NCBI GenBank assembly: GCA_003162695.1
Contig: PMML01000083.1
Coordinates: forward strand, 5,742-43,969
Length of the DNA: 38,228 nucleotides
Direction of reading: 5' to 3'
DNA from: Ignavibacteriota bacterium
Lineage (GTDB): Bacteria; Bacteroidota; Ignavibacteria; UBA10030
The notes beneath the pieces are model-generated. The model worked only from the letters and a program-made list of their open reading frames with translations. It ran no database searches and had not been told where the DNA came from. The position numbers were made by a program, and so were the translations under genes. This document shows, one piece after another, positions 25,666-36,579 of this stretch; position 1 is the stretch's first letter, and every line of letters begins with the position of its first letter.

Positions 25666-25702
25666 CAGTCTATACAATTTTCTGTTTACAGTTTACTGTT
25701 CA
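25666..25702 (-). repeat. Degenerate heptamer repeat tract 4
   Basis: On the minus strand, units AGTGAAC, AGTAAAC and TGTAAAC follow each other, then degrade. The first unit contains the SOD stop codon TGA (25702-25700), mirroring the pcm stop codon in tract 1. Confidence 0.7.
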
Positions 25703-26332
25703 CTTCCCAAGCACATATTTTTTATACCGTTCGTTGATTCTTCCCCAGTGCAGGTTTGCAATCACGTTGTCTATGTACTTTGCACGCGCCGGGCCGTCCT
25801 TATGATAATATGCATGTTCGAAAACATCGAGAGCGATCAACGGAACTCCGCCCCAGATGGCTCCGTATTGATGTTCGTCCACCAGTACATTGAGCAGCCG
25901 CTCCGAATAAAGCCGGTCGAACACAAGCAATCCCCATCCGCTGAGCTTCGCCGAGAGCGCTGAAGCTTTGAAGTCCGCTTTCCATGCATCGAACGATCCG
26001 AATTCTTTTTCAATCGCCGCTTTTATTTCCGGTCCCTTTGAAGAATCTCCGTCGCCGCCAAGGACTTCCCAGTACAGGTCGTGAAGCAGCGTTCCGGAGT
26101 GATTCCATGTAAACCGGCGTTTGAGCTCGCCGATCTGACTGTAGTTTCCGTTCGCTACCGAACGATCCGCCGTCTCCAGTCCTTTTTCGATGTTATTCAG
26201 GGCTGTGACATACCCTTTATGGTGCGTGTTGTAATGCCAATCAGTCGTTTCCGAACTGACGACATTCGCCAGCAGTTTCTTTGCATCTTCATCCGTATAC
26301 GGACGCGGTCTGAATTTCCATTCGTATGCCAT
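25700..26332 (-). CDS. Superoxide dismutase, Fe/Mn family
   Basis: 210 residues. It converts superoxide to oxygen and peroxide. The four metal ligands can be placed: His in DWHYNTHHKGYVTALN, His in SGTLLHDLYWEVLGG, and Asp and His in LDVFEHAYYHKDG. The KLSGWGLLVFD segment and the GAIWGGVPLIALD strand are family features. The second-ligand region has a few more residues than E. coli SodA/SodB, as in several environmental SODs. Metal preference (Fe or Mn) cannot be assigned with confidence. It is monocistronic, between the suf operon and a bidirectional terminator. No signal peptide, so cytoplasmic. Confidence 0.95.
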   Translation of the reverse strand: MAYEWKFRPRPYTDEDAKKLLANVVSSETTDWHYNTHHKGYVTALNNIEKGLETADRSVANGNYSQIGELKRRFTWNHSGTLLHDLYWEVLGGDGDSSKGPEIKAAIEKEFGSFDAWKADFKASALSAKLSGWGLLVFDRLYSERLLNVLVDEHQYGAIWGGVPLIALDVFEHAYYHKDGPARAKYIDNVIANLHWGRINERYKKYVLGK

Positions 26333-26431: not shown

Positions 26432-26824
26432 TTACGACATATTCAAAATCAATTTTGCCGCTTCGGTCATCATTCCCGGATTCCATGTCGGCTCGAAAAC
26501 CAGCTCGACCATGACATTACGCACGCCCGGAATTTGTTCCGCCCGCCTCTTGACATCCGCAGCGATCATAGGACCCATCCCGCATCCGGGGGCCGTTAAT
26601 GTCATCACAATAAATATATTCGCCTCGCCTGGAATTTCCTCTTCGACTTTTATGTCATAGACGAGTCCAAGGTCGACGATATTCACCGGAATTTCCGGAT
26701 CGTAACAATCCCGAAGCGCATCCCACACGCGGCTTTCTATTATCGGACCGTTGAGATCGAGAGAGGGAATTTCTTTCGGTTCATCAGCAGCCGGCCGTTC
26801 TTGTTTTTGTTCCTGGGCAGCCAT
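26432..26824 (-). CDS. sufT: SufT-like DUF59 (MIP18/PaaD) Fe-S assembly factor
   Basis: 130 residues from the ATG at 26824, two bases past the A-type carrier stop. After a charged 25-residue leader comes the DUF59 core: VWDALRDCYDPEIPVNIVDLGLVYDI (residues about 35-60), then VMTLTAPGCGMGPMIAADV with the conserved Cys, and VELVFEPTWNPGMMTEAA. Such proteins assist Fe-S cluster maturation and are commonly the last gene of suf operons. The distal position and co-transcription support that role; the gene name follows the functional analogue and is less certain than the family. Confidence 0.88.
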   Translation of the reverse strand: MAAQEQKQERPAADEPKEIPSLDLNGPIIESRVWDALRDCYDPEIPVNIVDLGLVYDIKVEEEIPGEANIFIVMTLTAPGCGMGPMIAADVKRRAEQIPGVRNVMVELVFEPTWNPGMMTEAAKLILNMS

Positions 26825-26826
26825 AA

Positions 26827-27195
26827 TCAATTACCGCAGTCACAACCGCCGCCGCAGCCGCATTTTTCCTCGCCCGGATTATCGAAATAAAATCCGCGTC
26901 CTTCCGGGCCCTCGGCAAAGGCCAGCTTCGATCCTGAAAGACGCAAAAGGCTTTGAAGATCGACAAAGACCGTCAATCCTTCGCTTTGAAATACGCGATC
27001 CGTTTCGCTCGCCTTGTCGTCGAATCCGATGAGATAAGAAACCCCGCAGCATCCGCTGCCGTCCTTAACACCTAGACGCAGCGATAACGATTCCGGAATA
27101 TTGTTTTCCGTTCGAACACGCCGAATTTCCGCCGCTGCTTCCGGTGTGATCGTAATCTCTGCTGCCGTCATGTTTTCCGTCATGTTTTCCGTCAT
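26827..27195 (-). CDS. A-type Fe-S carrier (IscA/SufA/HesB family)
   Basis: 122 residues. The fold is recognisable from ITITPEAAAEIRRV, the first conserved Cys in KDGSGCCGVSYLIGFDD, FVDLQSLLRLSGSKLAF, and FYFDNPGEEKCGCGGGCDCG with the Cys-Gly-Cys pair. The tail carries more Cys than needed. It transfers 2Fe-2S or 4Fe-4S clusters from SufBCD to targets. The start region is a triplicated 12-bp unit giving MTEN-MTEN-MTAAE; the first ATG (27195) has GGAG five bases upstream and is preferred, but 27183 and 27171 are possible. Confidence 0.93.
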   Translation of the reverse strand: MTENMTENMTAAEITITPEAAAEIRRVRTENNIPESLSLRLGVKDGSGCCGVSYLIGFDDKASETDRVFQSEGLTVFVDLQSLLRLSGSKLAFAEGPEGRGFYFDNPGEEKCGCGGGCDCGN

Positions 27196-27241: not shown

Positions 27242-27688
27242 CTATTCCGTAGAAACGGATTCAGCTTTGTCTTCTAGAACATTCTTCATCGTATGCCAGG
27301 CGAGGATCGCGCATTTGACCCGAGCCGGAAATTCGCTGACACCCGAGAATGCCGCCAGCTTGCCCAGCTCTTCCGCATCCGCTTTCGATTCTCCTCGCAC
27401 CAGACGATGAAACTGATCGAATATTACTTCCGCTTCAGCTCGCGTCTTTCCCTTGAGCAAGCTTCCCATGACCGACGCGGACGCTTTGGAAATAGCACAG
27501 CCCGATCCTTGAAAGGAAATATCTTCGATGACCTCGCCTTTCATTTTTATATAGACTGTATAGCGGTCCCCGCAGAGCGGATTATACCCTTCCAGAAAAC
27601 GATCCGGGTTTTCCATTTTCCTGTAATTCCGCGGGTTGCGATTATGATCGAGTATCACTTCCTGATACAGCGCTTTGAGATCAGACAT
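27242..27688 (-). CDS. sufU: SufU-type sulfur-transfer protein
   Basis: 148 residues. Resembles IscU but has the SufU-specific insertion between the second and third Cys. Motifs: LYQEVILDHNRNPRNYRKM, the first ligand in NPLCGDRYTVYI, FQGSGCAISKASASVMG, and the last in ARVKCAILAWHTMKNVLE. SufU takes persulfide from SufS through a zinc-dependent ligand swap. The start overlaps the end of sufS by eight bases. The linkage sufS-sufU is the Gram-positive-type arrangement that is also common in this bacterial group. Confidence 0.95.
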   Translation of the reverse strand: MSDLKALYQEVILDHNRNPRNYRKMENPDRFLEGYNPLCGDRYTVYIKMKGEVIEDISFQGSGCAISKASASVMGSLLKGKTRAEAEVIFDQFHRLVRGESKADAEELGKLAAFSGVSEFPARVKCAILAWHTMKNVLEDKAESVSTE

Positions 27689-28946
27689 AGCCGAAAACCT
27701 TTTTCACTTTTTGAATGCCCTGAACGAGCACATCGACTTCATCGACGGTATTGTAGAATGCAAATGAAGCGCGTGCTGTTGCAGGAATTCCGAACCGGTC
27801 CATCACCGGCTGCGCACAATGATGTCCCGTCCGTATAGCAATCCCCTCCTGATCGAGTATGGTTCCGATATCATGCGGGTGAATGCCGTCTATAACGAAC
27901 GAAACGACACCGGCTTTTTCTTTTGCCGTGCCGATTATTCGCACGCCTTCAATCTCCGAAAGCCGATCCGCTGCAGATCGAATCAATGCATGTTCATGAC
28001 GGACAACTGCTTCCCAATCGAACGTATGGAGATATTCCAGTGCCGTACCGAGACCGATTGCTCCTTCGATATGCGGTGTGCCTGCTTCAAATTTATAGGG
28101 CAGGTCGTTGAAAATAGTTTTTTCAAACGTCACGGAACGAATCATATCTCCGCCGCCCTGATATGGAGGCAAAGCATCCAGAAGTCGTTCCTTTCCGTAC
28201 AGCACTCCGAGTCCTGTCGGTCCGAAAATCTTATGCGAAGAAAATGCATAAAAATCCGCATCCAGAGCGAGCACATCCACGTTCAAATGCGGCACACCCT
28301 GTGCACCGTCGATCAGAACGGGAATACCGAAACGGTGAGCCGCCTCGATCATCCGGCGTATAGGGTTGACCGTTCCCAGCGCGTTCGAAATATGACTGAT
28401 TGCCGCAATTTTTACTTTTTCCGAGAGGAGCTCTTCAAACTCAGCCAATTCAACTTCGCCGCTGCTATTGATCGGCGCGACACGAAGTTTCGCCTGTTTC
28501 TCTTCGCAGATGAGCTGCCAGGGAACGATATTGGAATGATGCTCGAGCCCGGTGATAACGACCTCGTCCCCCGGTTTCAGATATTTCCTGCCGAAGGTCG
28601 CAGCGACAAGATTAATGCTGTCCGTAGCTCCGCGTGTAAAAATAATTTCTTTTGAAGAAGCGGCGTTGATAAACGCCCTGACGGTTTCACGAGAATCCTC
28701 ATACTTCTTCGTGGCAAGTTCGCTTAACGCATGCACACCGCGGTGCACATTGGCATTTTCTTCCCGGTAATAACGGTCTATTGCATCGAGAACCGCAAGC
28801 GGCTTCTGTGTGGTCGCGGCATTATCCAGATACACGAGCGGCTTTCCGTGAACCCGAATCGAGAGAATTGGAAAATCCCGGCGAATCCCTTCGACATCGA
28901 ATGCGGCAGACGATTTCGTCTTCCGTGTTTTTTCTGCAGTCATCAT
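27681..28946 (-). CDS. sufS: Cysteine desulfurase SufS
   Basis: 421 residues, PLP-dependent class V fold. It releases sulfur from L-cysteine as a persulfide. Motifs: PLVYLDNAATTQKPLAVLDAI, NVHRGVHALSE, FTRGATDSINLVA, LEHHSNIVPWQ, DGAQGVPHLNVDV, the PLP Lys in AFSSHKIFGPTGLGVLYG, and the catalytic Cys in AIRTGHHCAQPVMDRFGIP on the short group II loop. A 20-residue charged leader precedes the conserved start. The ATG overlaps the sufD stop as ATGA. Confidence 0.97.
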   Translation of the reverse strand: MMTAEKTRKTKSSAAFDVEGIRRDFPILSIRVHGKPLVYLDNAATTQKPLAVLDAIDRYYREENANVHRGVHALSELATKKYEDSRETVRAFINAASSKEIIFTRGATDSINLVAATFGRKYLKPGDEVVITGLEHHSNIVPWQLICEEKQAKLRVAPINSSGEVELAEFEELLSEKVKIAAISHISNALGTVNPIRRMIEAAHRFGIPVLIDGAQGVPHLNVDVLALDADFYAFSSHKIFGPTGLGVLYGKERLLDALPPYQGGGDMIRSVTFEKTIFNDLPYKFEAGTPHIEGAIGLGTALEYLHTFDWEAVVRHEHALIRSAADRLSEIEGVRIIGTAKEKAGVVSFVIDGIHPHDIGTILDQEGIAIRTGHHCAQPVMDRFGIPATARASFAFYNTVDEVDVLVQGIQKVKKVFGYV

Positions 28947-30280
28947 ACAGCACCCTTTCGTCCGCGGTCAAGCCGGGAATGAATCTGCAAATCTATCTGT
29001 TCGCGAAGCTCCGGAATGCCGATACTCCCGACTACCTCGCCGGCAAAAGCATAGGTCAGCATATCCCGCGCTTCCGATTCATCGAGACCGCGCGCACGAA
29101 GATAAAATATATGTTCCGCATCGAGCTGTCCCACCGTAGCTCCGTGCGTGCATTTGACGTCGTCCGCAAATATTTCAAGCTGCGGCTTTGTATCGATCAC
29201 GGCATCATCCGACAGCAGGAGCGTTTTATTCGTTTGTTTTGCATCCGTCTTTTGCGCGTCTTTATGCACCATAATTTTTCCGTTAAATACGCCTCGGGCT
29301 TTTCCGTCCAGAATAGCTTTGTAGACTTGATGACTGCTGCAGTTCGGTTTTATATGATCCAGCAGCGTGTGGTTGTCGATAAGCTGATTTCCATGCGCAA
29401 TCGAGAGACCGTTGAGACGACATTCTATTCCCTCCGCATCGAGCCTGGCAGCGAGCGTATTCCGGACCAGAAGACCGCCGAGCGTTATGCAATTCGAACG
29501 ATACGCACTTCCGGCCTGCTGGTACACGGAAGAAGTATTGACGTGAAATGCATTTTCGCCTTCAAGCTGAATGCGGTCATGTTCAACGACTGCGTGAGTT
29601 CCAAGAACCACTTCTGATACGGCATTTGTCAAATATGCCTGACCGCCAGGACCGAAATACGTCTCGACAATTTTCACCTGAGCCGCATCGCCGGCAATAA
29701 AAAGACTTCTCGGATATGCAACGAACGGGTCATTTCGCTTTGTTGCCGAATAAATGACCTGAATCGGTTTCTCGACAATCGTATGACCGGGGACGAAAAG
29801 AAAAACACCATCCAGTGAAAAAGCGGCATGAAGCGCTGTAAATCCATTTTCACTCGAATCGGTATATGCGCCGAGATGAATCAGCGCTTCGGGACGGTTC
29901 TGCTTCAGAGCGGCGGCAAGACTTTCACCAACAACGCCTGCAGGCAGGTCTTTTAAGTCTGAAAGTGCGGAAGAAAAATATCCATCGACAATAACTACAC
30001 GTATAACATCCTTCAGCATAACGGATTCGAGATCCGCTAAAGAAATAGACACGGCCTGATTCGCAGGAACAGGCTGGAAATGTGTTTTGGTAACGGGTTG
30101 TATGTTCGTAAACCGCCATTCTTCATGTCTGGAAGTCGGAAATCCCATTTCCATAAATTTTGAGAATGCCCGGCGGCGCAGAGCATGCCGCGGAGTCGAT
30201 TTTTCACCGTTGAGTCCCTGTTCGAATTTTTCAAAATCCGATTGATACGATAATTGCACTGTTTGATCCGTCGATTGCAT
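28943..30280 (-). CDS. sufD: Fe-S cluster assembly protein SufD
   Basis: 445 residues from the ATG at 30280, which has GGAG six bases upstream and starts 11 nt after sufC; the longer frame to 30325 overlaps sufC and is not used. SufD pairs with SufB on SufC to form the scaffold and is needed for iron acquisition. The N-terminal part has FPTSRHEEWRFTNIQP. The C-terminal beta-helix carries the SufBD core features: HAVVEHDRIQLEGENAFHVN, DHIKPNCSSHQVYKAILDG and RGVFNGKIMVHKDAQKTDA, then EIFADDVKCTHGATVGQLD with a conserved Cys-Thr-His. Confidence 0.95.
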   Translation of the reverse strand: MQSTDQTVQLSYQSDFEKFEQGLNGEKSTPRHALRRRAFSKFMEMGFPTSRHEEWRFTNIQPVTKTHFQPVPANQAVSISLADLESVMLKDVIRVVIVDGYFSSALSDLKDLPAGVVGESLAAALKQNRPEALIHLGAYTDSSENGFTALHAAFSLDGVFLFVPGHTIVEKPIQVIYSATKRNDPFVAYPRSLFIAGDAAQVKIVETYFGPGGQAYLTNAVSEVVLGTHAVVEHDRIQLEGENAFHVNTSSVYQQAGSAYRSNCITLGGLLVRNTLAARLDAEGIECRLNGLSIAHGNQLIDNHTLLDHIKPNCSSHQVYKAILDGKARGVFNGKIMVHKDAQKTDAKQTNKTLLLSDDAVIDTKPQLEIFADDVKCTHGATVGQLDAEHIFYLRARGLDESEARDMLTYAFAGEVVGSIGIPELREQIDLQIHSRLDRGRKGAV

Positions 30281-30291
30281 TCTTCGCTCCG

Positions 30292-31056
30292 TTAGACAGC
30301 CTGTGCCGTTTCTTCTTTTACCCAATCGTAGCCGCGCGATTCGAGTTCGACCGCCAAATCCTTCGTGCCGGATTTTACAATACGGCCGTCGACAAGGACA
30401 TGGACGACATCGGGAATAATATAATTCAGCAGGCGCTGGTAATGCGTCACGATAATCGATGCATTTTCCTTGCTGCGCAGTTTGTTGACGCCGTCTGCGA
30501 CAATCCGGAGCGCGTCGATATCCAGTCCCGAATCCGTTTCGTCGAGGATTGAAAGAACAGGATCAAGCACGGCCATATGAAATATTTCGTTCCGCTTTTT
30601 CTCGCCGCCTGAAAATCCCTCATTGACCGGACGATTGAGAAAACTCTCATCCATTTCGATCAGCTTCAATTTCGATTTAATGAGTTTGAGAAAATCCATA
30701 GCATCCAGTTCCTCCAATCCACGGTACTTCCGGACGGCGTTCAGCGCTGCTTTCAGGAAGTACGAATTATTGACTCCGGGAATTTCGACCGGATATTGAA
30801 AGGCAAGGAACAATCCTTCACGCGCACGTTCCTCAGGATTGAGCGAAAAAAGGTCTTTCCCGCGGTATAGGACATCGCCTTCTGTTACCGTATAAGCATC
30901 GCGCCCGGCAAGAACACCTGCGAGCGTGCTTTTTCCGGAACCATTAGGCCCCATAATCGCATGTATCTCTCCAAGATTCACTGTAAGGTTGATTCCGCGG
31001 AGAATTTCATTTCCATTCACCTCCGCACGCAAATTTTTAATTTCAAGCAAAGACAT
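30292..31056 (-). CDS. sufC: Fe-S assembly ATPase SufC
   Basis: 254 residues, ABC-type ATPase without membrane partner. Walker A is GPNGSGKS (residues 36-43), followed by the Q-loop [13 protein letters not shown], the SufC-specific [20 protein letters not shown] signature, Walker [17 protein letters not shown], and the switch His in [13 protein letters not shown]. It drives conformational change of the SufBD scaffold. GAGG precedes the ATG. It is separated from sufB by 136 nt containing a heptamer repeat tract, the only long gap inside the operon. Confidence 0.97.
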
Positions 31057-31110: not shown

Positions 31111-31195
31111 CAATGTTTGTAATTCCTGGTTCTTAGTTTCTATTCACTATTGACCGCATTCTTTATTCTTACTTCTGAATTCTTCATTCTTGTTA
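31111..31195 (-). repeat. Degenerate heptamer repeat tract 5, inside the suf operon
   Basis: Starting at the sufB stop codon, the minus strand has units AATGAAG, AATTCAG, AAGTAAG and AATAAAG in exact 7-base phase, then weaker TCAATAG / TGAATAG and AACTAAG / AACCAGG units. It fills most of the sufB-sufC gap, so it is transcribed. Confidence 0.72.
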
Positions 31196-32638
31196 GCCTA
31201 CGCTTCCTTCCAGGCTTACGCCGAGAAGTTTTTGGGCCTCAACGGCAAATTCCATCGGCAATTCGCGAAAAACTTCTTTGCAAAATCCGTTAACGATCAT
31301 ATTCACCGCATCTTCTGCAGAAAGGCCTCGTTGTTTGCAGTAAAAAATCTGATCCTCGCCGATTTTTGAAGTCGACGCTTCATGCTCCACTTTGGATGAT
31401 GTATTTTTTACTTCGATATAGGGGAACGTATGCGCGCCGCATTTATCCCCTAAGAGAAGCGAATCGCATTGCGAGAAATTACGCGCATGCACTGCCCCCT
31501 TTTTGACCTCGACGAGTCCGCGGTATGAATTCTGCCCGCGTCCCGCCGAGATGCCTTTGGAAACGATCGTACTGTGCGTGTTCTTTCCGATATGAATCAT
31601 TTTTGTTCCGGTATCAGCCTGCTGGTAATTATTGACGACTGCAACGGAATAAAACTCGCCGACGGAATTATCTCCGACTAAGAGAACGCTCGGATATTTC
31701 CAGGTGATGGCCGATCCGGTTTCGACCTGCGTCCATGAAATTTTCGAACTGTCGCCGGTGCATTTGCCCCGCTTGGTTACGAAATTAAAAATACCGCCGC
31801 GGCCTTCTTTATCCCCGGGATACCAGTTTTGTACCGTCGAATATTTAACCTGAGCATTTGCATGCGAAACGATCTCCACGACTGCTGCATGCAGCTGGTT
31901 CGTATCCCGCATAGGAGCCGTGCATCCTTCCAGATAACTGACGTATGCCCCTTCCTCCGCAACGATCAATGTGCGCTCGAATTGACCCGTGTCCGCAGCA
32001 TTGATGCGAAAATACGTAGAAAGCTCCATGGGACAATGGACGCCCTTCGGAATAAAACAAAAAGAACCGTCGGTGAACACAGCCGAGTTGAGAGCCGCAA
32101 AAAAGTTGTCGTTTTGCGGAACGACCGATCCGAGATACTGTTTTATCAGATCCGGATGCTCGCGCACCGCCTCTGAAAAGGAACAGAAAATAATTCCGAG
32201 GTCTTTCAACTTTTCTTTAAATGTCGTTGCAACGGAAACGCTGTCGAAAACGGCATCGACCGCAACACCGGCAAGCCACTCCTGCTCCTTGAGCGGAATA
32301 CCCAATTTTTCGTATGTTTTCACAAGTTCCGGATCGACTTCGTTCAAGTTTTTCGGCCTTATTTTTTGTTTCGGAGCCGAATAATATGCAATCGCCTGGT
32401 AATCGATCGGTGCAAATTTCACGTTCGGCCAATGAGGCTCCGTCATGGTTTTCCAATGCCGGTACGCTTTCAGACGCCATTGGAGCAGCCATTCCGGTTC
32501 CTCTTTTTTTAACGAGATCATTCGGATGACCTCTTCGCTGAGGCCCGGTGCGACCGTATCGGACTCTATATCGCTTACAAATCCATACTTATATTCCTGC
32601 GTTGCAAGATTCTCAATTTGATTTTGATCTGCATTCAT
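31193..32638 (-). CDS. sufB: Fe-S cluster assembly protein SufB
   Basis: 481 residues, the standard SufB length. It is the main cluster-building scaffold of SufBCD. Visible family blocks: [127 protein letters not shown], and the beta-helix core to the C-terminal [21 protein letters not shown]. It begins 14 nt after the Rrf2 gene. Confidence 0.97.
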
Positions 32639-32652
32639 ACGTGCTCGCGTTT

Positions 32653-33057
32653 CTATATAATCTGTTCCAATGTTGTATTTTCAAGAAGGACGTTGAGATT
32701 GTGCTGCATTTTTTCGAGCGGGCGGCGGATGGTGCATGAATCGTAAATCGAACAGTTATCCATCCCTTCCGCGTAGCATTCGGTAATTGTAGGCTTCTCT
32801 TCTTCAATAACCTGAATAATTTTCGAGACCTGCAATTCATCCGGCCGGCGTGCAAGCGAATATCCGCCGCGCATTCCCTGAATCGATATGAGGAGTCCCG
32901 CTTTCGACAATTTCTGCAGTACTTTCGCCAGCAGCTCGTATGGAACATCGCAGCGCACGGCAATTTCTTTGGCTGTAAAGAATTGACCGGATGGATTCAT
33001 TGCCATGTGCCTGAGCGCCATCAGACCGTACTCGACTTTTTTCGAGAGCTGCAGCAT
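32653..33057 (-). CDS. Rrf2-family regulator of the suf operon (IscR/SufR-like)
   Basis: 134 residues. The winged helix lies at residues about 1-75: [39 protein letters not shown] (recognition helix) and the wing [10 protein letters not shown]. Three cysteines, C94, C102 and C108, in [16 protein letters not shown] match the position of the Fe-S ligands of IscR, although the first spacing is seven rather than five residues. It probably senses cluster supply and autoregulates rrf2-sufBCDSU. Dyads at 33129-33187 are candidate operators. Confidence 0.93.
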
Positions 33058-33088
33058 AACTACGACTTAATCAGTCCTATATTGTTTC

Positions 33089-33119
33089 AAAAAAATGAGA
33101 GCATTCTGCCGCTCTCATT
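33089..33119 (-). terminator. Terminator-like hairpin in the suf leader
   Basis: AATGAGAGC (33094-33102) pairs perfectly with GCTCTCATT (33111-33119), loop of eight, followed on the minus strand by T residues. It lies about 30 nt before the Rrf2 ATG with no minus-strand gene upstream that would need it. It therefore probably acts as an attenuator or mRNA-protecting 5' stem. Confidence 0.7.
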
Positions 33120-33128
33120 AAAATCATT

Positions 33129-33187
33129 GCAAAGAAATTACTTTCTTGCTATTTAAATATCTCTGGAAATTTCTTGCAAATCAAGAA
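33129..33187 (-). promoter_or_regulatory. Putative suf promoter and Rrf2 operator region
   Basis: Dyad 1 (33171-33187) reads TTCTTG-5 nt-CAAGAA. Dyad 2 (33129-33149) has near-perfect GCAAaGAAA / TTTCTTGC arms. The same GCAAGAAA half-site recurs. On the minus strand TTGATT (33184-33179) followed after about 18 bases by an A/T-rich TATTTA can serve as -35/-10, placing dyad 1 over the -35 and dyad 2 just past the start point. Operator function is inferred from position only. Confidence 0.4.
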
Positions 33188-33237
33188 CATTTCTTACTTT
33201 GAAATTTTTTTGAAGTGCGCTATTTTTTCTCTACCTT

Positions 33238-34182
33238 ATGTATACTATGAATGCACTTCAAACAGAAAACCTGAGCAAACAATACCGCTCCGGGGCCTTC
33301 AAAAAATATAACATACCCGCGCTCGATAAAGTTTCTTTGGAAGTCGGGGAAGGTGAAATTTTCGGCCTTCTTGGCCCTAACGGAGCCGGAAAAACGACAT
33401 TTATTAAAATTATGCTCTCGATTGTTCATGCGACATCGGGAAAAGCGGAAATCTTCGGGCAGTCGATCAAAATCCGCTCAGTACGAGAATTATGCGGCTA
33501 CCTGCCGGAGAATCATCGTTATCCGCAGTTTTTGCATGGACTCGATACACTCCTTTTTTTCGGAAGGCTGAATGGACTCTCCGAATCGGAATTGCGTCCG
33601 AGGGCGCAAACATTGCTGGAAACGGTCGGTTTGGTACAGTGGGCAAAAGTCAAGACAAAAAAGTATTCAAAAGGCATGCTCCAGCGTCTGGGTCTGGCGC
33701 AGGCATTGATGAATAATCCCAAGCTCCTTTTTCTGGACGAGCCGACGGATGGTGTCGATCCGGTCGGAAGAAAAGAGATACGCGATTTGCTGATCGGCTT
33801 AAAATCGCAAGGGACGACAATCTTTTTGAATTCCCATTTGCTCTCGGAAGTAGAACTCATCAGCGACCGGGTGGCCATCCTCAATAAAGGCAAAGTTATA
33901 CGGACAGGAACAGTTGCGGAAATAACATCTCAAAAGCTGTCGTATACCATACAGCTTTCCTCGCATTTGCCGCTCGCACTGGAAGAACGATTCAAATCTT
34001 CGCTTCCGGCATTTTCGTACACGGACAATCGCCTGGATATTTCGCTCAACGATAAAACCGACCTGAATCCGGTCATCGATGCGCTGCGGACGGCAGGCAT
34101 CGGCATCGATGGGATGACACAGCAAAAAGCTTCGCTTGAAGATTATTTTATCAAGCTTGTCCAAGGAGAAAACAACAAGTGA
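33238..34182 (+). CDS. ABC transporter ATP-binding protein
   Basis: 314 residues. The nucleotide-binding domain has Walker A GPNGAGKT (residues 46-53), ENHRYPQFL around the Q-loop region, the signature as KYSKGMLQRLGLAQAL (a Ser-Lys-Gly variant of LSGGQ), Walker B KLLFLDEPTDGVDP, and switch His in FLNSHLLSEVELI. The last 90 residues form the C-terminal extension seen in exporters of the CcmA/NatA type. ATG at 33238 or 33247; no Shine-Dalgarno sequence is seen, and the transcript may be nearly leaderless. The stop overlaps the permease start by four bases. Substrate unknown. Confidence 0.93.
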   Translation: MYTMNALQTENLSKQYRSGAFKKYNIPALDKVSLEVGEGEIFGLLGPNGAGKTTFIKIMLSIVHATSGKAEIFGQSIKIRSVRELCGYLPENHRYPQFLHGLDTLLFFGRLNGLSESELRPRAQTLLETVGLVQWAKVKTKKYSKGMLQRLGLAQALMNNPKLLFLDEPTDGVDPVGRKEIRDLLIGLKSQGTTIFLNSHLLSEVELISDRVAILNKGKVIRTGTVAEITSQKLSYTIQLSSHLPLALEERFKSSLPAFSYTDNRLDISLNDKTDLNPVIDALRTAGIGIDGMTQQKASLEDYFIKLVQGENNK

Positions 34183-35440: not shown

Positions 35441-35457
35441 TTACATTGAGGACGTCT

Positions 35458-36579
35458 ATGAAGATCGGCATTACATGCTACCCGACTTACGGCGGAAGCG
35501 GCGTTGTTGCAACCGAACTCGGCAAAGAACTTGCCCGCAGAGGCCATTCCGTTCATTTCATCAGCTATGCGCTGCCGATGCGATTGGGAGGATTCCAGGA
35601 TAACATTGTCTATCACGAAGTAGAAATGTCCAATTACCCGCTCTTTGAGTTTCCTCTTTATACTCTTGCGCTCGCCAGCAAGATGGTGGAAGTCGCCCGG
35701 TATGAGAAGCTCGACATCCTCCATTGTCATTATGCCGTTCCCCATGCAACAAGCGCTTACCTGGCAAAACAAATTCTCCGCGATACGAACATAAAGATCG
35801 TTACGACACTTCACGGCACCGATATCACATTAGTCGGTTTGGAACCGAGTTTTTTGTCGATTATGAAGTTCAGCATCGAACAAAGCGACGGTGTCACCGC
35901 AGTTTCGCGGTTCCTTAAAGAAAAGACACAAACCAATTACGGCATCGATAAAGATATTGCCGTTATTCCGAATTTTATCGACACCGCAAAATACAAACGG
36001 ATCCCCTCCGATATTTTTTTCGTCAAATGCGGTGCCGAGGGACAGAAAGTCCTTGCCCACACATCGAATTTCCGACCCGTCAAACGGGTCCCGGACGTCA
36101 TACGTATTTTCAATGAAGTTCAGAAAAAAATTCCAAGCATTCTTCTTTTGATCGGCGACGGTCCCGACCGCTCGCAATGTGAAATTCTCTGCCGCGAGTT
36201 GGGCATCGGAGACAAAGTACGCTTCCTCGGAAAACAGATGGAAATCGTTCCTCTTCTCTCAACGGCGGACTTATTCCTCATGCCGAGCCAATCGGAAAGT
36301 TTCGGTCTTGCCGCACTCGAAGCAATGGCATGCGAAGTTCCGGTTATCTCATCCAGCGTCGGCGGGCTGCCGGAATTGCAGGTGCACGGACAGACTGGTT
36401 TCATTGCGGAGATCGGCGACATCGATCGCATGGCACGCTACGCCATCGACCTGCTTTCCAATCCGGTCAAGCACAAAATGTTTGCCGAAGCTGCCCGGAG
36501 GCGTGCAGAGGAATTCGAATCGACAAAGATCATACCGCAATACGAAGAATATTACGAGAAGATCCTATCGACACCTTAA
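35458..36579 (+). CDS. bshA: N-acetyl-alpha-D-glucosaminyl L-malate synthase
   Basis: 373 residues from the ATG at 35458, with GAGGA five bases upstream; the TTG four codons earlier is part of the ribosome-binding region. It is a GT4 glycosyltransferase joining GlcNAc (from UDP-GlcNAc) to L-malate, the first step of bacillithiol synthesis. Signatures: MKIGITCYPTYGGSGVVATE, ILHCHYAVPHATSAYLA, TTLHGTDITLVG, VIPNFIDTAKY, HTSNFRPVKRV, LLIGDGPDRSQ, and the E-x7-E motif in QSESFGLAALEAMACEVPVI. bshB and bshC are not in this window. Known from Firmicutes, Deinococcus and Bacteroidota/Chlorobiota. Confidence 0.95.
   Translation: MKIGITCYPTYGGSGVVATELGKELARRGHSVHFISYALPMRLGGFQDNIVYHEVEMSNYPLFEFPLYTLALASKMVEVARYEKLDILHCHYAVPHATSAYLAKQILRDTNIKIVTTLHGTDITLVGLEPSFLSIMKFSIEQSDGVTAVSRFLKEKTQTNYGIDKDIAVIPNFIDTAKYKRIPSDIFFVKCGAEGQKVLAHTSNFRPVKRVPDVIRIFNEVQKKIPSILLLIGDGPDRSQCEILCRELGIGDKVRFLGKQMEIVPLLSTADLFLMPSQSESFGLAALEAMACEVPVISSSVGGLPELQVHGQTGFIAEIGDIDRMARYAIDLLSNPVKHKMFAEAARRRAEEFESTKIIPQYEEYYEKILSTP

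Follow-up and report, generated by a model that had tools for sequence, protein, structure and literature searches.

In the locus described here, a terminator-like hairpin followed by a T-run stands before the first gene of a putative suf operon. The window, i.e., the whole stretch of DNA analysed, comprises 38,228 nt of contig PMML01000083.1 from an Ignavibacteriota bacterium, and all coordinates refer to it. A sequence-only reading of the window had proposed that the operon is controlled in two layers, by the Rrf2 protein and by premature termination or 5′ stem protection in the leader.

The suf operon and the rrf2 leader

The genes and the hairpin behind them are as follows.

32653..33057, minus strand: rrf2, Rrf2-superfamily regulator with Cys94, Cys102 and Cys108 (ATG at 33057)
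31193..32638, minus strand: sufB
30292..31056, minus strand: sufC
28943..30325, minus strand: sufD, start codon uncertain
27681..28946, minus strand: class-V aminotransferase, SufS-like by position
27242..27688, minus strand: NifU_N scaffold protein, SufU-like
26827..27195, minus strand: A-type Fe-S carrier (Fe-S_biosyn)
26432..26830, minus strand: FeS_assembly_P (SufT-type) protein
25700-26332: Fe/Mn superoxide dismutase, the last gene before the terminator-like hairpin
25653-25620: 15-bp terminator-like hairpin behind the suf genes

Gene order and spacing suggest that rrf2 through the superoxide dismutase gene form one operon. Many relatives in the leader family that includes the window (f1) carry an additional ORF of approximately 120–150 amino acids between rrf2 and sufB (e.g., L019:1936-2355). 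This ORF is missing between the two genes in the window, and the one example tested had no Pfam match. Upstream, rrf2 is separated from a divergent ABC gene, which begins at 33238, by a gap of 180 bp with 29% GC. The leader contains the following elements.

33179..33184, minus strand: likely -35 element, TTGATT
33187-33171, minus strand: first GCAAGAAA-type repeat, TTCTTG-N5-CAAGAA (arm score 14)
33156..33161, minus strand: likely -10 element, GATATT, ending 60 nt before the T-run
33129..33149, minus strand: second repeat, GCAAGAAA-N4-TTTC(T)TTGC (arm score 13), not conserved
33094..33119, minus strand: terminator-like hairpin AATGAGAGC-(8 nt)-GCTCTCATT with a 10-pair stem, from inverted-repeat score and fold energy
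33089..33095, minus strand: T-run (T7), whose first two T double as the last two bases of the stem
33083..33088, minus strand: 6-nt gap GAAACA between the T-run and the 25-bp dyad
33058..33082, minus strand: 25-bp dyad ATATAGGACTGATTAAGTCGTAGTT, predicted Rrf2 operator, directly abutting the rrf2 ATG

The strong hairpin and T-run claimed upstream of rrf2 were confirmed. The inverted-repeat score of the hairpin was equalled in 0.6% of 500 shuffles of the 180-bp gap, and the 39-nt hairpin segment folds at -13.5 kcal/mol (z -3.1). By pair number, it ranks second among the 33 terminator-like hits between 20000 and 38228 (20.7 expected from shuffles), the 15-bp hairpin behind the operon being first. 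The stem runs straight into the T-run, as in an intrinsic terminator, and RNA would probably be released at this point, i.e., transcription would terminate. A search of 19 sources matched no Rfam leader or riboswitch family, the only hits being two tRNAs in the window. The hairpin lies upstream of the ATG, as had been stated, at a measured distance of 36 nt rather than 30 nt. No minus-strand gene lies directly upstream of it, again in agreement with the sequence-only reading, because the neighbor is the divergent ABC gene.

The two GCAAGAAA-type inverted repeats highlighted by the same reading are present but unexceptional: their uninterrupted arms (14 and 13) were matched by 26% and 40% of shuffles, respectively. 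Within 300 nt upstream of rrf2, GCAAGAAA/TTTCTTGC recurred in only 1 of 92 other loci. On this ordinary score and lack of conservation, the GCAAGAAA dyads were rejected as Rrf2 sites. In the leader RNA, the second repeat would fold into a small 5′-terminal hairpin. The 25-bp dyad between the hairpin and the ATG, which that reading did not mention, is the best conserved element of the leader.

The promoter assigned to the window (TTGATT-N17-GATATT) has 8 of 12 matches, which is at chance level, since 78% of shuffles of the AT-rich stretch reach this value. The same hexamers with the same spacing occur in the same kind of place in L003-L007. Transcription would start near 33149.

Conservation and spacing of hairpin, T-run and dyad

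Loci of rrf2 were collected from 61 genomes of the order to which the window belongs and from 80 named loci (Ignavibacteriae, Ignavibacteria, and MAGs labelled Bacteroidetes or Chlorobi). A first search of the genome contigs with a single protein as query gave no match. From the 61 genomes, G044 (no match) and G017, G018, and G019 (distant paralogues only, E 1e-15 to 1e-19) were dropped, leaving 57 leaders including the window. Among the 80 named loci, 44 were duplicates and 36 were added, giving 93 leaders, window included. These belong mostly to the same order (Ignavibacteria-type MAGs), with a few from outside.

The dyad scored at least 10 of 14 in 89 of the 93 leaders. The distance from the last T of the T-run to GACT is exactly 12 nt in 74 leaders and 12–15 nt in 85, with 13 nt in four, 14 nt in two, and 15 nt in five. 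A pattern combining T-run, spacing, and dyad (TTTTN12GACYN5RGTCSKA) found 47 matches in 45 of the 61 genomes; by their coordinates, 43 lie at rrf2. The reversed pattern had eight. The dyad lies 0–69 nt from the start codon, the unit as a whole being displaced upstream by 69 nt in L035 and 62 nt in L037. Hairpin sequence, promoter, neighboring gene, and start-codon distance thus all vary around a fixed spacing between T-run and dyad.

Eight leaders depart from this arrangement. L153, L154, L161, and L172 keep a dyad variant and have T-runs 18–23 nt from GACT; in these loci (sampled again as L208, L205, L206, and L204, respectively), a TATATT -10 element ends 13–17 nt before the GACT position. 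L047 and L183 lack a T-run, and TATATT was seen by eye approximately 29 nt upstream of the GACT position. Both T-run and dyad are missing from L198 and L203. The six exceptions that bear a dyad thus have their promoter close to it.

Because stems cannot be aligned across genera, hairpins were assessed as stems anchored to the T-run, in the 84 of 93 leaders with sufficient upstream sequence and a T-run no more than 15 nt away. A stem adjoining the T-run, with a loop of at most 10 nt and a score of at least 16, was found in 44 of 84 leaders (3.6% of shuffles), and the same number had stems with a loop of at most 60 nt and a score of at least 18 (5.8% of shuffles). Fold z was below -2 in 42 of the 84 leaders and in 6 of 84 upstream control segments. 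The hairpin is kept in relatives while the GCAAGAAA dyads are not, a split answer to the conservation check that had been suggested. Different genera have unrelated stem sequences (AATGAGAGC, AGAGTC, TCGAGGG, GATTCCG, ATTTCTC, and AGAAGAA), and in a sizeable minority of leaders no local stem is convincing, so conservation is stricter for the T-run and its spacing than for the stem. When aligned leaders were folded to a consensus, f1 (20 sequences) and f6 (15) gave no structure, and f5 (16) gave five pairs at -1.96, the covariation term being positive; none was supported overall. Aligning four f5/f6 leaders gave no useful information.

The promoters in front of this unit are of several kinds. 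In f1, the best promoter reaches at least 10 of 12 in 15 of 29 leaders (window included), and the -10 element ends 29–42 nt before the T-run in 25 of 29, the window having 60 nt. Most f2–f4 loci have no above-chance promoter upstream of the T-run, and 5 of the 12 f3/f4 loci examined have a small ORF in the same direction whose end is 46–92 nt before it. In f5/f6-type leaders, the element GRAAC-N18/19-GTT precedes the T-run in 31 of 35 (0.23 expected; 0 of 29 in f1 and 0 of 17 in f2–f4), a post hoc count, as these 35 loci were grouped after the element had been seen there. Its carriers include L036, L050, L053, L163, L166, L167, L185, L187, and L194. The element, which we take to resemble an ECF sigma promoter of the SigR/SigH type, is flanked by the T-run on one side and by a promoter-like site farther upstream on the other. 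Several f5 loci place the 5′ arm of the terminator stem upstream of the element, so only RNAs from the upstream promoter could presumably form the terminator. The unit of hairpin, T-run, and dyad thus persists behind different promoters. Its anatomy and, as judged by conservation, the coupling of its parts are well supported.

The sequence-only reading had also suggested that control is shared with the divergent ABC exporter. This is unsupported: by reading of gene neighborhoods, the divergent gene next to rrf2 is an ABC gene in 16 of 29 relatives and a glycosyltransferase in 11, with the unit retained throughout. Furthermore, the predicted operator is 117 nt from the sole promoter-like site facing the ABC gene in the far half of the gap (33199-33226). 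The glycosyltransferase that lies directly beside rrf2, in divergent orientation, in those 11 relatives (L008, L013, L023, L026, and others) is BshA-like. In the window, an ORF that reads like BshA (35446-36579) lies beyond the ABC genes.

The Rrf2 protein and its predicted operator

The regulator belongs to the Rrf2 superfamily, with 102.3 bits against TIGR00738 (cut-off 73.3) and 112.3 bits against PF02082 (cut-off 30). It stays below the cut-offs of the IscR equivalog profile TIGR02010 (67.2 bits; 207.55) and of the Xanthomonas-type SUF regulator profile TIGR02944 (81.8 bits; 110.65). Its three cysteines are invariant in 32 sequences. The reported cluster ligands of IscR are Cys92, Cys98, Cys104, and His107; Cys94, Cys102, and Cys108 align with the cysteines, but Arg111 faces His107, and the full ligand set is not matched. 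Glu43, which is reported to keep apo-IscR off type-1 sites, is not conserved and aligns with Ala44. By analogy with IscR at type-1 sites, we assume that the cluster form of the protein represses.

The 25-bp dyad, which begins 7 nt beyond the end of the T-run, is the probable binding site of this protein. It has the length of an IscR type-1 site and the exact GACT-N5-AGTC core, and by our own count it agrees with the type-1 consensus ATASYYGACTRWWWYAGTCRRSTAT at 17 of 25 positions. Type-1 sites of P. aeruginosa are reported to fit this consensus at 68% and 76% (PMC3899308). The upstream region of E. coli iscR carries TTACTTGACTGATTTAGTCGGGTAT, one mismatch from ATANNNGACTNNNNNAGTCNNNTAT (0.01 expected). 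Columns from the 73 leaders with the 12-nt distance and enough sequence give a 25-bp palindrome, AWATARGACTNNNNNRGTCGKATWT, with the first A and last T invariant; a G directly follows the T-run in 93%. An RNA stem formed by the dyad was considered and rejected, as the position beside GACT/AGTC is mostly R opposite G, a mismatch. We read the dyad as DNA because of this mismatch and because the same dyad covers promoter elements at feoAB, as described below. For a second operator in the window's own genome, a search allowing up to three mismatches gave 32 matches versus 117 for the reversed control, and none is claimed.

In 32 genomes, the plain dyad pattern had 17 matches (7 at rrf2, 5 at feoB operons, and, as we read them, 5 inside other genes) and the reversed control had nine. 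The feoB operons belong to five relatives (L090, L094, L095, L101, and L104), and no such hairpin is present there. FeoB was confirmed in all five loci, and FeoA in the one tested. Their promoters consist of TTGACT/A, N17, and TAAATT, TAATTT, or TAACTT, which places the -10 element inside the dyad center. At feoAB, the dyad thus reads as an ordinary site for blocking a promoter, and in L094 and L095 it is followed by a second dyad-like sequence. All five feo sites carry A2 and T6 of a -10 hexamer at the dyad center, as against 8 of the 83 hairpin leaders with a dyad score of at least 10.

At the class level, 60 loci were picked among the best matches listed from 149 genomes, L204-L208 being repeats of loci among the 93. 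Among the matches listed, the dyad scored at least 10 of 14 before rrf2 in 46 of the 60 loci, a lax test for a hairpin plus a T-rich stretch was passed in 11 of 60, and five hairpin units were clear by eye (L207, L220, L223, L228, and L248). Outside the order, the dyad center had A2 and T6 in 20 of 41 class loci among the matches listed. In L217, L239, and L241, the right half-site was seen by eye to run into a TAnnTTTG-like sequence, as if, we presume, the dyad overlapped a Bacteroidetes-type -7 element. The class-wide dyad and the -10-like centers outside the order suggest that the operator predates the hairpin unit. Within the loci sampled, that unit belongs mainly to the order of the window.

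A proposed mechanism and comparison with known systems

We propose, with a little better than even confidence, that the unit is a repressor-gated terminator, in which Rrf2 bound beyond the T-run promotes premature termination. Judged from sequence only, RNA polymerase would start upstream of the hairpin and meet DNA-binding Rrf2, presumably the form present when Fe-S clusters are replete, just ahead of it. The bound protein would hold polymerase at the T-run while the hairpin forms and RNA is released, and rrf2-suf expression would be kept low. When Rrf2 leaves the DNA, presumably upon iron or Fe-S shortage or oxidative stress, polymerase would cross the modest terminator more often and the operon would be made. 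Two-layer control by Rrf2 and premature termination was therefore a good guess whose parts were wrongly assigned: the likely operator is the GACT-N5-AGTC dyad that follows the terminator rather than the GCAAGAAA repeats, and the 12-nt spacing in 74 of 93 leaders makes the two layers look like a single, coupled device.

One alternative is a plain roadblock next to an independent, constitutive attenuator hairpin, the fixed spacing being inherited without function. The reported C.Kpn2I and LacI roadblocks work without hairpins, and the four leaders with distant T-runs (L153, L154, L161, and L172) keep the dyad variant without such a T-run. However, the spacing is kept while stems, promoters, and start-codon distance change, which neutral inheritance explains poorly, and we regard this alternative as unlikely.

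Promotion of termination is the direction of the Rrf2 effect that we favor, and the opposite sign seems to us quite improbable: bound Rrf2 would stop polymerase before the end of the T-run and prevent release, and the poised polymerase would enter the operon when Rrf2 leaves. Polymerase is reported to stall at about the site edge (C.Kpn2I), 12–13 nt before the site (EcoRI E111Q), or 15 bp from it (Reb1). With Rrf2 bound, these positions would place the RNA end between the hairpin base and the end of the T-run. The longer clearances (12–15 nt) put it at the first T or the hairpin base, where the hairpin would not yet be complete, and this counts against promotion of termination. In addition, forward translocation is thought to accompany release, and according to that published view a protein bound ahead could oppose it. 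On the other hand, a polymerase freed from the block must still cross the terminator, the precedents of YtgR and Pol I point the other way, and a reported block-and-release experiment saw more termination at the trp attenuator after the block.

It is very unlikely, in our judgement, that the hairpin serves as the terminator of an upstream gene, as an insulator, or as a shield for the 5′ end of the mRNA, with the dyad as a separate element. The co-directional small ORFs of the f3/f4 loci and the missing above-chance promoters of most f2–f4 loci would fit such a role, but the neighbor is divergent in the window and in most f1 relatives read, the f1 promoters lie upstream of the hairpin, and neither insulation nor 5′ protection calls for a fixed distance between T-run and dyad. 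Least credible of all is that the dyad is an ordinary promoter-overlapping operator with the T-run standing in for a -35 element: the T-run is at the feoAB -35 distance (17 nt before the dyad-center hexamer), but that hexamer has A2 and T6 in so few hairpin leaders, and the ATG directly after the dyad in many f1 loci leaves no room for a leader.

Beyond the mechanism itself, we consider, at slightly less than even confidence, that this order evolved a repressor-gated intrinsic terminator, a counterpart in bacteria to the hairpin-plus-roadblock terminator of Pol I. Its origin would be an older Rrf2 site overlapping a promoter, it would serve behind promoters of different types, and the occupancy of the sensor would decide release.

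The systems compared with the repressor-gated terminator are described in PMC12366685, PMC6237814, PMC10310618, PMC3913778, PMC4132739, PMC3899308, PMC11475020, PMC12594620, and PMC6504234. IscR type-1 autoregulation of isc in E. coli and P. aeruginosa likewise involves a 25-bp site with a GACT-N5-AGTC core and an Fe-S sensor of the Rrf2 family whose gene comes first in an Fe-S assembly operon. However, the P. aeruginosa sites are reported to overlap the RNA polymerase recognition region (PMC3899308), whereas the window dyad is downstream of a terminator-like hairpin, and the window protein falls below the IscR profile cut-off. YtgR at trpRBA of C. trachomatis is an iron-dependent repressor reported to terminate upstream transcripts at an operator inside the transcription unit; it is another protein in another pathway, at a single locus, and the main text of that paper mentions no hairpin. 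The reported C.Kpn2I and LacI roadblocks show that a protein downstream of its own or a test promoter can stop elongating polymerase, but the C.Kpn2I paper, in its available text, has no terminator hairpin and mentions no hairpin, and no conserved T-run spacing is described for either protein in the text available. TRAP reportedly raises termination in the B. subtilis trp leader, as proposed for Rrf2, but it binds nascent RNA, whereas the predicted site in the window is DNA ahead of polymerase. The parts of the unit are of known kinds; their precisely spaced combination in bacteria was not found in searches of one open-access library.

The closest well-characterized parallel is the Pol I terminator with Reb1 or Nsi1. 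As reported, it has an RNA hairpin, a T-rich stretch, and a DNA-bound protein in the same order and close spacing, and Pol I termination needs all three in combination, whatever the sequence of the hairpin. It differs in being eukaryotic, constitutive, located at the end of the transcription unit, and dependent on backtracking, with the site 15 bp beyond the stall and the hairpin 20 nt before it. If the proposed mechanism is true, a protein roadblock and intrinsic termination, which are usually treated apart, are joined in one switch with conserved geometry. The natural variants in spacing, hairpin, and promoter would make it testable how a protein ahead of RNA polymerase affects hairpin-driven release. 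It would also supply an operator and two predicted targets (suf and feoAB) for an uncharacterized Fe-S-type regulator in a little-studied bacterial group.
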